Origin: Kordia sp.
Lineage (GTDB): Bacteria; Bacteroidota; Bacteroidia; Flavobacteriales; Flavobacteriaceae
Direction of reading: 5' to 3'
DNA: 64,000 bases
Assembly (NCBI RefSeq): GCF_022447245.1
Contig: NZ_JAKVBC010000031.1
Location: forward strand, 1-64,000
Part shown: piece by piece, positions 49,841 through 54,182 of the stretch
Layout of the letters: each line of letters starts with the position of its first letter
How positions within the stretch are numbered: the first letter of the stretch is position 1
Notes under the pieces: model-generated
Database searches by the model: none
What the model was told of the DNA's origin: nothing
What the model saw: only the letters and a program-made list of their open reading frames with translations
Translations under genes and position numbers: made by a program

Positions 49841-50959
49841 CTAGTATAATAAAAATGATACTATTGAAAGTATTACAAATGTCAGCGGCACCACAAAAAT
49901 CAAATAGATAGACGTCAACAAAAGGGTTTTAAAAAACGTTTTAAAGTATCCTTGTTCGTAAAAATGCTTCAAGCTTAAGATTAAGTAAATCAGCATTGAA
50001 AGAAGTAACGTAATATCAATCCAATCAGGAATTTCTAAAATCAAATTCGTGGTAATAATAATACTCGATGCTAAGAATATAAAAGCAAAAAAGTAAAAAC
50101 TAAATACCATGTGATGCGCAAAGCATCCGCGTTTTCTGTAGGATAACTTTAGTAATAACGCAAAAATTGGAATTAGAAAAAACATGGAAATTGGAATAGT
50201 ATCCATAAATGCTTTTAAAATTCCATCTCCTTTTTTTTCACGAAGTTTAATAAATTGTTTTCCAAAAAATCTGGCAAATAATCCATCGGATTCTACATAA
50301 CCTATTGCTTTAAGTTTTTCATCCATAGTAGCACCTGCTAGGTATAACGAATCGAGCTTTTTAGTATCAAAATTAAAACCAAAAACAGTATTGTTTTCAT
50401 ATGTAGGATTGCTTTTTTTACGTAGCTTAATACGTGTAGTATCATTTAGAATGCTATCATGTGGCTCTACATATCCGGTTGTAAGGAAATTGGTAAGTTT
50501 TTGAATCGATATACTATCTTTTCCCTTGGTTTCAACCAAATCATTCTCTAGTACTTGTACAATAGAATCACGAATCCGCTCTGCTTTTTTTACTAATGCA
50601 TTTTCTTTTCCAAAGGAGTTTACAAAACCATCTTCAATACGTTCTTGTGTAGCTCTTGTAGATACCGAAAAAATAAAGAAAAAGACAATAGACGCAAACA
50701 AGTAAAATTGTGCTGGATGCAAATACATGAGTCGCTTTCCAGATACAAATTTCTTAGCCAAATAACCTGGTCTGGTTAATAAAGGAATAAAGCTTCTAAA
50801 AAAACGTGCATCTACCGAAAAATAGTTCATCACTGTATTATGAAATAACACAAGCATATTGAGTTTATCATCTACCTTTTGCCCACAATTAGGACAATAG
50901 TTATGATAACGTGTTAGTTGATAATCACAGTTGGGACAATGTTTACTTTTGACAGACAT
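49841..50959 (-). CDS. DUF3667 zinc-ribbon membrane protein
   Basis: 372 residues. N-terminal zinc ribbon with Cys8, Cys11, Cys22 and Cys25 (CPNC and CPNC), then FRSFIPLLTRPGYLAKKFVSGKR and YLHPAQFYLFASIVFFFIFS, the DUF3667 core. A long hydrophilic periplasmic or cytoplasmic insert (about 105-265) carries charged helices. The C-terminal third has four membrane helices (ISMFFLIPIFALLLKLSY, MVFSFYFFAFIFLASSIIIT and two more). Found throughout Bacteroidota, function unknown. Monocistronic, followed by the decayed locus near uvrA. Confidence 0.9.
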   Translation of the reverse strand: MSVKSKHCPNCDYQLTRYHNYCPNCGQKVDDKLNMLVLFHNTVMNYFSVDARFFRSFIPLLTRPGYLAKKFVSGKRLMYLHPAQFYLFASIVFFFIFSVSTRATQERIEDGFVNSFGKENALVKKAERIRDSIVQVLENDLVETKGKDSISIQKLTNFLTTGYVEPHDSILNDTTRIKLRKKSNPTYENNTVFGFNFDTKKLDSLYLAGATMDEKLKAIGYVESDGLFARFFGKQFIKLREKKGDGILKAFMDTIPISMFFLIPIFALLLKLSYRKRGCFAHHMVFSFYFFAFIFLASSIIITTNLILEIPDWIDITLLLSMLIYLILSLKHFYEQGYFKTFFKTLLLTSIYLIFVVPLTFVILSIVSFLLY

Positions 50960-51690: not shown

Positions 51691-51832
51691 CATTTGAGTA
51701 TATATAATTGTCAACAACTGTCTAAAGAAACTTCAAATTGTTACAGATTTCAACTATCGCTTATGAATATACTTTAAAAAATACTTATCAAAAACTACGT
51801 TTAAAATTCTAATTATCAACATATTACATTTT

Positions 51833-51847
51833 TGGCACGAAATTGGT
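51833..51847 (+). promoter_or_regulatory. Sigma-54-like -24/-12 element (3-base spacer)
   Basis: TTTTTGGCACG, then AAA, then TTGGT. The -24 half is a perfect TGGCACG. The -12 half resembles TTGCT, but the spacer is one base shorter than the canonical four. Located 66 bp before the start of the first YD-repeat protein. Confidence 0.5.
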
Positions 51848-51913
51848 TTTACTAAAAGCAAATAGCGCACGCCGAAAAGCTAAAGAGTAGGCATAACCCT
51901 AAAAGTACAGAAT

Positions 51914-52558
51914 ATGAAAAACTTTTATCTTTTATTCGTAGGATTGTTACTGAGTGTAACTTCTACACAGGCAAATGTAATGAGCGACCAAACATACGGA
52001 AGCGAAAATGGGTTAACCAATCGCTATCGTTATGCACAACCAATTCAGTTTGTAGAGCGAGGTGTAGAATTTTTTGTTTTCTTAAATGGAGAATTCGATT
52101 TTAACACACATCCTGTAAACTACAGACGAGGACGAAGAAGCTATGTAAATACAACGTATGGTGCACCAAGAGTGAGGACAAGGGCAAATCGTTACAACAC
52201 CAGAAATGTTGGTGTACGCGTAGAGCACGATCACAACGGAAGAGTTCGAAGAATTGGAAATTTATTCATCAACTATGATCGTTTTGGTAGAGTAAAAAGA
52301 ATTGGATCTATTTACATGCGTTACCACGACAGACATGGGAAACTAAGACAAATTGGTGGATTGCGTTTAAAGTACAACCGTTGGGGAAGATTGATCAGAC
52401 AGACTGGATCGGTAAAACCAATTGTAGTTGGTGGTTCTTGTGGAGTGGATGGTGGAGACATTTATATAGATGACGAGTATCAAGATGGACACAATGTGCC
52501 AGCAGATGATGAAGATTTATATTATTATAGAAGAAAAGGAGGAAAACAAAAGAAATAA
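51914..52558 (+). CDS. Secreted basic YD-repeat protein
   Basis: 214 residues. Signal peptide (FYLLFVGLLLSVTSTQA), a conserved FVERGVEFFVFLNGEFDF block, a basic stretch (RRGRRSYVN) and four tandem units of about 16-17 residues of the type Y-x-R-x-G-R-V-x-R-I-G (HDHNGRVRRIGNLF, YDRFGRVKRIGSIY, HDRHGKLRQIGGLR, YNRWGRLIRQTGS). The C-terminus is acidic then lysine-rich (KGGKQKK). It shares the GEFDF block and repeat type with the next gene, so they are paralogues. Exported; role unknown. A sigma-54-like element precedes it and a strong terminator follows. Confidence 0.75.
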   Translation: MKNFYLLFVGLLLSVTSTQANVMSDQTYGSENGLTNRYRYAQPIQFVERGVEFFVFLNGEFDFNTHPVNYRRGRRSYVNTTYGAPRVRTRANRYNTRNVGVRVEHDHNGRVRRIGNLFINYDRFGRVKRIGSIYMRYHDRHGKLRQIGGLRLKYNRWGRLIRQTGSVKPIVVGGSCGVDGGDIYIDDEYQDGHNVPADDEDLYYYRRKGGKQKK

Positions 52559-52593
52559 AAAAGACTAATCTTAATTAGTTTTTTAAAACATAA

Positions 52594-52634
52594 AACCTCG
52601 TGAAGTGTGTTACGCTTCACGAGGTTATTTTTTT
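52594..52634 (+). terminator. Rho-independent terminator
   Basis: Perfect 12-bp stem (AACCTCGTGAAG and complement), 9-base loop, then a T-run. Nothing else is evident in the following 270 bp apart from a short AGTATGG/CCATACT inverted repeat near 52830. Confidence 0.85.
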
Positions 52635-52908
52635 ATAGTATAAAGAAAACGCTCCAATTATTTCTTCGCTGCGTTCGTATTTTTATAAACATAAAGAAGG
52701 AGCCAACTAAACTACAAAATTTATCATATCAAACGATTATAACTAAATTCTTCATGTAACTTTATGTACGGCTACAGCACTACTATATTTTCGCTGACTA
52801 AAGTAATTATTTGCAACTACTTTATAGTATGGCAAAACCATACTTTACATCAGTTAATAAACTCGTTTTACGCTCTTTACTTTTTTCTAAAAAGGATTCT
52901 TTAATTTT

Positions 52909-52924
52909 TGGCACGCTGTTTGGT
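52909..52924 (+). promoter_or_regulatory. Sigma-54-like -24/-12 element
   Basis: TGGCACG, four bases, TTGGT: spacing as in the canonical TGGCACG-N4-TTGCT. It is preceded by the same T-run as the element upstream of the paralogue and lies 31 bp before ATG 52956. Confidence 0.65.
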
Positions 52925-52955
52925 TACTATTAATTGAATATTAAAACCTTATGTT

Positions 52956-54182
52956 ATGAAAAAAGTACTCATTACACTCACAGGATTGTTTTTCTTAGCG
53001 GTTAGTACTGCTGAGGCAAAACGGATGGACACTACAGTAGCGAATTCTTTATTATCTAACGAAGCATTTACTTTCGTTGAAAATGGAATTACGTTTTCAG
53101 TATATAATGATGGAGAGTTTGATTTTTTCATCAATCGCTTACACTCTAATGTTAGCGCTAATGTAAACGTTGGCGGTTTACAAATTTCTTTTAATTCTGG
53201 ATACGATTATAATCCATTTGTTCAGTATGATGATTACGGAGCAATTATTCAAATAGAAAACACACCTATCTTTTACGATTATTACGGAAGGGTCTACAGA
53301 ATTGGAGATGTTAACTTTAATTATAATCATTTTGGAAATTTAGTACAAGTTGGTGGATTGTTTATTTACTATGATTCGTTTTCAAGATTCTCGCATACCA
53401 GAGGCTTTATAAACCCATATAACCGAATTTACAGACGAACGGCTTATTACAATACCGTATTTTTCCGTCCAAGAGTTAACTTTTGTTTGGTAAGCGTTAA
53501 TCCATATAGAAGATTTTATACGCCAGTTCGTTACACGTATTGCAGTCCGTATAGAAACAACTTCAGATATAGATATTCAAGAGCTAGAGTTGGACATATT
53601 TACCACAGTGCTGCTCGTGCGAATACTAATAGAAGAAGTATTTACAGAAACGATCGTAGAGTATCTCGTAGAAATGATGCTGCAATATACAACACACGTG
53701 GAACTGTAACGCGTACAAATACACGCAACACACGTCAAGCAACAACAACACGTTCAACAACACGTAACAATACAAGAAGTGTTAATACAAGAACTACACG
53801 TAACAACAACACAAGAATAGGTGGCGTTCGTAGCAGTAATAGTAATAATGCACGCATTGAACGCGGAAACACAAGAACAACTCGAAATAATAATAGTAGT
53901 GTTAGTTCTAATACAACAAGAAATAATACAAGAGCTACACGTAGCAACTCACGAACGTCGAGAGATGTAAGAGCAACAAGAAGTACACGTAATAATAGCT
54001 CAGCAAGAAACAATAGAAGTTCTAGCAGAAGAACCATAGCAAAGCCACAAAGAAGCAATTCTTCTGGAGCTACAAGATCAAATCGTTCTTCTCAGCGAAA
54101 ATCTGCAACATCACGCTCAAATCGTTCTTCAAAAAAGGCAACCAGCAATAGCAGAAAAAGAAGTTCAAGAAGTAGAAACTAA
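52956..54182 (+). CDS. Secreted YD-repeat protein with Arg/Asn/Thr-rich tail
   Basis: 408 residues. Signal peptide (VLITLTGLFFLAVSTAEA), a FVENGITFSVYNDGEFDF block shared with the preceding paralogue, and YD-type units (YDDYGAIIQIENTPI, YDYYGRVYRIGDVNF, YNHFGNLVQVGGLFI). From about residue 215 to the end the chain is low complexity, almost only Arg, Asn, Ser and Thr (TRNNTRS-like repeats), strongly basic and surely disordered. An exported polycationic tail could bind extracellular DNA or acidic polysaccharide (inference). A sigma-54-like element precedes it. Confidence 0.75.
   Translation: MKKVLITLTGLFFLAVSTAEAKRMDTTVANSLLSNEAFTFVENGITFSVYNDGEFDFFINRLHSNVSANVNVGGLQISFNSGYDYNPFVQYDDYGAIIQIENTPIFYDYYGRVYRIGDVNFNYNHFGNLVQVGGLFIYYDSFSRFSHTRGFINPYNRIYRRTAYYNTVFFRPRVNFCLVSVNPYRRFYTPVRYTYCSPYRNNFRYRYSRARVGHIYHSAARANTNRRSIYRNDRRVSRRNDAAIYNTRGTVTRTNTRNTRQATTTRSTTRNNTRSVNTRTTRNNNTRIGGVRSSNSNNARIERGNTRTTRNNNSSVSSNTTRNNTRATRSNSRTSRDVRATRSTRNNSSARNNRSSSRRTIAKPQRSNSSGATRSNRSSQRKSATSRSNRSSKKATSNSRKRSSRSRN

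Follow-up and report, generated by a model that had tools for sequence, protein, structure and literature searches.

Promoters of the sigma-54 (RpoN) type consist of -24 and -12 elements with a GG-N10-G spacing and a TTGC consensus at -12. Small RNAs under an alternative sigma factor include RybB, MicA and MicL, the sigma-E-dependent envelope-stress sRNAs of enteric bacteria. To our knowledge, the alternative-sigma regulons of the Bacteroidota are known in few species. For Flavobacterium psychrophilum, mapped transcription starts with predicted sigma-54 (SM4) sites are described for dnaK (Table 2A of PMC9723704), for groES, lon and clpB, for gliding genes and for a number of exported proteins of unknown function; mutation was used to test the SM4 site in front of the gliding operon (PMC9723704). 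Chaperones are also enriched in the predicted sigma-54 regulons of Flavobacteriia (PMC12316311). The remark of a first-pass annotation of the present locus, that RpoN targets are poorly known in Bacteroidota, is true only in part, since chaperone and envelope targets are described in these two papers.

The window analysed here is a stretch of 64,000 nucleotides from Kordia sp. (contig NZ_JAKVBC010000031.1), in which two neighbouring genes, termed A and B, are each preceded by a -24/-12 element. We consider it highly probable, from sequence comparison, that A and B form separate RpoN transcription units for small exported YD-like proteins, within a Flavobacteriaceae-wide sigma-54 regulon that also includes dnaK and a set of short RNAs. 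The comparison yields a family-wide set of predicted sigma-54 targets with a clean motif, together with a family of small, apparently exported repeat proteins for which there is no Pfam or NCBIfam model.

Two -24/-12 elements and the genes behind them

The locus comprises the following features:

51829..51847, forward strand: sigma-54-type promoter of gene A, TTTTTGGCACG-AAA-TTGGT; start of transcription predicted near 51859
51862..51893, forward strand: DUF805b RNA (RF02914), 38.2 bits against a gathering score of 35.6; H-type pseudoknot by covariation; ends 20 nt before the gene A ATG
51914..52558, forward strand: gene A, 214 aa, with a signal-like N-terminus, a GEFDF block and YD-like beta repeats
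52594..52626, forward strand: hairpin AACCTCGTGAAG..CTTCACGAGGTT and T run, probable terminator of gene A
52634..52787, reverse strand: candidate non-coding RNA, strongly conserved in 11 of the 11 Kordia genomes examined; no Rfam match
52905..52924, forward strand: sigma-54-type promoter of gene B, TTTTTGGCACG-CTGT-TTGGT; start of transcription predicted near 52935
52956..54182, forward strand: gene B, 408 aa, with a signal-like N-terminus, a GEFDF block, YD-like repeats and a long basic tail rich in Arg, Ser, Thr and Asn

Upstream of gene A (ATG at 51914), TGGCACG occupies positions 51833-51839 and TTGGT positions 51843-51847; the corresponding positions for gene B (ATG at 52956) are 52909-52915 and 52920-52924. 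The distances of 66 and 31 nt to the start codons given in the first-pass annotation are exact, as is the spacing of N3 for gene A versus N4 for gene B. The spacing that is one base shorter is explained by the TTGG at -12: the second G of TTGGT stands in for the first, so that in the GG-N10-G register the -12 of gene A reads TGGT (G at 51846) and the register is retained. Among the Kordia genomes the gene A spacing is N3 in five and N4 in the other six, and all five N3 genomes have TTGGT at -12. The heptamer TGGCACG by itself is not unusual in the window, since its five copies are reached by 9 of 100 shuffles (mean 2.57). The remaining three copies (27627, 41433 and 60057) sit within ORFs; the first-pass annotation had noticed none in any other upstream region of the window. 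The fuller pattern TTGGCACG-N3/4-TTGG is unique to the gene A and gene B sites in the 5.24-Mb genome (backward control, 0).

Conservation upstream of homologues had been proposed as a check of the element; homologues were collected by a protein search that was blind to the promoter. The protein family was recovered from 31 of 60 genomes (21 of 46 genera), a count that includes the present genome, and from 22 loci of named contigs; the ten further Kordia genomes have two family matches each, and the named Kordia contigs match at up to 93% identity. The pattern TGGCA[CT]-N4/5-TTG was found no more than 130 nt from the ATG in 61 of 62 distinct homologue upstreams, compared with none of 143 further ORFs taken from these loci. 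The sole exception, L017, reads ATGA at -12. The register GG-N10-G (GGCA[CT]-N7-G) is present in all 62, compared with 2 of the 143 other ORFs, and neither pattern occurs in the same 62 upstreams read backward. These are not 62 independent cases, since 22 of them come from 11 Kordia genomes and about 40 from elsewhere; excluded from the count were L035-L042 (Kordia genomes already represented as L006-L015), upstreams of less than 150 nt, and duplicates. Between genera the flanking DNA changes while the element persists. Its distance to the ATG is 64-68 nt in 26 of the 27 A-type upstreams (97 nt in one) and 31-72 nt in the B-type. The -12 reads TTGA (13), TTGG (8), TGGT (5) or ATGA (1) in the 27 A-type promoters, and TTGT (17), TTGG (14) or TTGA (4) in the 35 B-type promoters. 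The consensus C after the -12 G is thus found in 0 of the 62 protein-gene promoters of both types, the base being G, T or A; among the 33 promoters of this class that precede short RNAs, 9 have TTGC, and the dnaK promoter has TTGA.

The paralogy of A and B, with common GEFDF and Y-x-x-G-R-V blocks, holds at a BLASTP E-value of 4e-10 (27% identity over 172 columns), and their signal-like N-termini suggest that both proteins are exported. The label "YD-repeat" given to them earlier is appropriate as YD-like, in view of a weak similarity to teneurins, but a curated YD/RHS model is not matched and the proteins are not classed here as RHS. Specifically, a family profile search matched teneurins at E 0.03, and the Pfam and NCBIfam repeat models gave no match to the family. 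The structure models are confident over the repeats only (mean pLDDT 54.9 for A and 50.7 for B; repeat blocks about 68-84 and 64-80, respectively). In Foldseek searches teneurin shells ranked top for both proteins, and an Rhs core was also among the gene B matches; the top E-values were 0.034 and 0.013, with none at or below 0.001, a probability of about 1.0 and a query TM of about 0.3. A plasmid search with gene B gave no match.

The leader of gene A contains a DUF805b RNA, which would be nearly the first thing transcribed if the start lies at about 51859, and a pseudoknot at this end of the mRNA would probably tune translation. DUF805b exceeds the Rfam threshold in 19 of 27 A-type leaders and in 0 of the 32 B-type leaders scanned (those of L032-L034 were outside the scan). 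Conservation of CATAACCCTAAA, the segment after the element, extends beyond Kordia to L047, L049, L051 and L052 (Lutibacter, Tenacibaculum and another member of the Flavobacteriaceae). The whole genome has 30 DUF805b matches (L079-L108), 15 of them over threshold; an ORF follows 22 of these copies, in 21 cases 21-29 nt from the GAGTA core, and a -24/-12 element is present within 120 nt upstream of a single copy, that of gene A. Several of the ORFs code for short peptides with Gly-Gly leaders that resemble natural-product precursors. Both helices of the H-type pseudoknot covary in 26 of the 30 copies (L091, which mirrors L090, and the weak L106-L108 were left out), with 87.7% of the cells paired and 39 two-sided changes compared with 11.8 in shuffles; slid registers fail.

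Between genes A and B, AACCTCGTG and CACGAGG of the gene A terminator region are kept in 11 of 11 Kordia rows. For the conserved stretch that follows, the best explanation is an RNA of 154 nt or more, whose minus-strand orientation is suggested by G-U pairs. Six marker strings chosen from this stretch do not occur between genes A and B in other genera. Its identity with 6S RNA was considered and rejected, as 6S-Flavo is located elsewhere in the genome. On the other side of gene A lies a divergent DUF3667 gene (49841-50959, reverse strand), whose leader has CCAACCAAA just 5' of the ATG; this segment is complementary to nine bases of the tag described below, and the match varies among Kordia species.

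Putative short RNAs and their 3' tag

The strict motif TTGGCACR-N4-TTG has 12 sites in the genome (two inside ORFs), compared with 7 for the backward control. This enrichment is only mild, too weak to serve as sole evidence. At four of the 12 sites (L059-L062) the motif begins a unit of roughly 100 nt, with TTGGTTGGTTAG, a hairpin and a T run at its end, and another site, L057, resembles a variant of such a unit. The genome holds six copies of TTGGTTGGTTAG (backward control, 3): one lies in a CDS and five in short units, that at L112 having a weaker -24. The five tag-bearing short RNAs are found at C21:24741-30285 and C15:46401-46518, four of them within 6 kb.

The combination TTGGCAC-N58/88-TTGGTTGGTTAG was detected in 40 of 199 Flavobacteriaceae genomes, this one included, with 47 matches (control, 0 of 199). 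All 47 matches listed have a -12 TTG at the exact spacing, a feature outside the search pattern. For L124 and L126, which fall wholly or partly within a CDS, the match is probably due to chance, which indicates that the -12 TTG can also occur by chance. With these two removed, 33 of 35 distinct units were kept; a scripted count found the -12 TTG in every one of the 33, and 25 of them passed a simple terminator test. In a class-level sample of 149 genomes, G271 alone matched beyond this genome, twice, both times without the -12 TTG. A covariance model built without the promoter provided units taken as independent, defined as the 19 loci of at least 56 bits in genomes without a match to the TTGGCAC-tag pattern; GGCA[CT]-N4/6-TTG lies just 5' of 15 of these 19 (L168 being a sixteenth), compared with 125 of 7600 random windows. 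The low-scoring tail of that model (88 of 120 genomes, with rough E-values up to 0.001) was not trusted.

Rfam (release 15) scans of 10 and 18 short-unit loci, covering 16 of the 30 loci L116-L145, gave 0 matches over the gathering score. RNAalifold on 23 members supported the terminator alone; of five members folded singly, two clearly surpassed their shuffles (z near -3) and the others did not. A dyad of the TGATATTAAAATGATATCA type occurs upstream of the promoters of seven units (L059, L123, L131, L132, L140, L141 and L142); in several cases it lies near the start of an apparent divergent gene and may be the operator of that gene.

The tag UUGGUUGGUUAG also occurs after gene B outside Kordia. 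The tag or a close variant is located 3' of the gene B stop codon in 18 of 21 non-Kordia relatives, nine of them letter for letter, compared with 1 of 18 A-type genes and 0 of 214 control ORFs. In Kordia itself the tag is found at the gene B 3' end in 0 of 2 and in 0 of 8 further loci. The terminator after the tag contains GCC[TC]CAAAGCA in 7 of the 21 non-Kordia 3' ends (L016, L019, L022, L023, L026, L033 and L046), so that conservation of the gene B 3' UTR extends beyond the tag, a sign that the UTR may itself be under selection. A common 3' signature thus links protein genes to short RNAs with the same class of promoter. Gene B at L025 and L029 is immediately preceded by a separate tag unit that has a TTGGCAC element of its own. 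A further copy of the tag, at L173, stands behind the apparent stop codon of another protein gene, with no -24/-12 element in the upstream sequence read.

The short RNAs form a probable sRNA arm of the Flavobacteriaceae sigma-54 regulon. One or several copies per genome would be switched on by RpoN and end in UUGGUUGGUUAG and a terminator, and outside Kordia the gene B mRNA of most genera examined would bear the tag or a variant just past its stop codon. How the tag acts can be read in two ways. The more interesting is that it is a seed before the terminator with which the RpoN-dependent sRNA pairs with target mRNAs, and that the gene B 3' UTR, with the same seed, is a source or sponge of the sRNA; we put this forward tentatively, at somewhat under an even chance. 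The targets would then carry ACCAACCAA-like leaders. The plainest reading is that UUGGUUGGUUAG is a signal for termination or RNA stability, or the site of an RNA-binding protein, with the short units as decoys or by-products, a proposal that likewise has somewhat under an even chance. It is consistent with the position of the tag just 5' of the hairpin in short units, as well as in the gene B 3' UTR, and with the recurrence of GGUUA in GUGGUUAC, a segment conserved among the short RNAs. It is also favored by the pairing tests: pairing of the short RNA or of the tag with the A or B leaders was not above that of shuffles, and complementary sites at start codons have no clear enrichment, CCAACCAA being present in 3 of 475 start windows and 0 of 475 windows inside ORFs (its reversal, a poor control as it is itself complementary to the tag, gave 3). 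On the other hand, the tag is no general companion of terminators, being absent after all 214 control ORFs, and five of its six exact genome copies belong to short units, with three copies of the backward 12-mer. Should the seed reading be true, the sRNAs would constitute a post-transcriptional arm of a sigma-54 stress circuit, confined to Flavobacteriaceae on the samples searched, and a counterpart of the enteric sigma-E sRNAs that evolved on another sigma factor.

Promoter or operator

The genome codes for RpoN (E 1.4e-52) and has ten matches to activator domains, three of them strong (E below 1e-65). Its dnaK gene has TTGGCACAATCATTGA (TTGGCAC-N5-TTGA) starting 95 nt 5' of the ATG. Together with the family-wide conservation and the invariant GG-N10-G, these findings support the view of the first-pass annotation that A and B belong to an RpoN-controlled family of exported proteins. 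Since RpoN is found in 60 of 60 genomes searched, its co-occurrence with the family is uninformative. In the predicted course of events, RNA polymerase with RpoN would bind the GG-N10-G of the A and B elements, and an AAA+ activator would open the two promoters. A search for an activator-binding dyad common to the A or the B promoters gave none that exceeded the commonest shuffled dyad; TGAT-N1-ATCA is in small excess (3 of 22 gene B promoters). This result, the mild genome-wide enrichment of the strict motif and the base after the -12 G, which is the weakest link, tell against the RpoN reading. From these sequence features we infer promoter activity for both elements, and the promoter type common to A, B, their relatives and the short RNA genes points to a shared stress-response circuit.

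It is unlikely that the conserved element is instead the operator of some DNA-binding protein beside an ordinary sigma-A promoter. Such an operator would agree with the base after the -12 G, which is never C in A or B, with the lack of strong genome-wide enrichment of the motif, and with start sites that are predicted here; nevertheless, the positions that are invariant in 62 of 62 upstreams are those of sigma-54, the distances to the ATG are set (64-68 nt in 26 of 27 for A, 31-72 nt for B), the element opens short terminator-ended units, and it precedes dnaK, whose F. psychrophilum counterpart has a mapped start and a predicted sigma-54 site (PMC9723704). It is most improbable that the element reflects chance or the simple shared ancestry of upstream DNA without function: the heptamer is near its chance frequency in the window and many homologues come from one genus, yet the element persists while flanks diverge between genera, and the counts for homologues and controls (0 of 143 control ORFs with the motif) speak strongly against it.

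Comparison with known systems

The promoters resemble the SM4 promoters of F. psychrophilum in the TTGGCAC at -24, the GG-N10-G, the presence of rpoN and a dnaK member (PMC9723704). Three activators are counted in that species, as are three strong activator domains here, and exported proteins without known function are among the targets in both (PMC9723704). Unlike in the SM4 set, the -12 G in A and B is followed by G, T or A, and the predicted targets consist of YD-like proteins together with a short RNA family. This family, for which the loci scanned gave no match in Rfam 15, is not recognisable in the accessible portions of PMC9723704 and PMC12316311; the SM4 list nevertheless has one putative regulatory RNA, Rfp36 (PMC9723704), which may be a member.

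As in the YD/RHS shells of teneurins and bacterial Rhs proteins, the A and B proteins have a Y-(D/N)-x-x-G-(R/K)-(V/L) repeat with a paired-strand pattern, whereas they are small, with few repeats, no shell and no other recognised domain, and the matches are weak (E 0.01-0.2). The DUF805b element differs from the printed model of RF02914, which has one helix, in a second covarying helix that makes it an H-type pseudoknot.

Finally, the short RNAs are comparable to the enteric sigma-E sRNAs in being short, in ending at a terminator and in their dependence, here predicted, on an alternative sigma factor tied to protein quality control, and the tag common to short RNAs and an mRNA 3' UTR is counted here among the likenesses. 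They differ in the sigma factor and the phylum and in their unrelated sequence.
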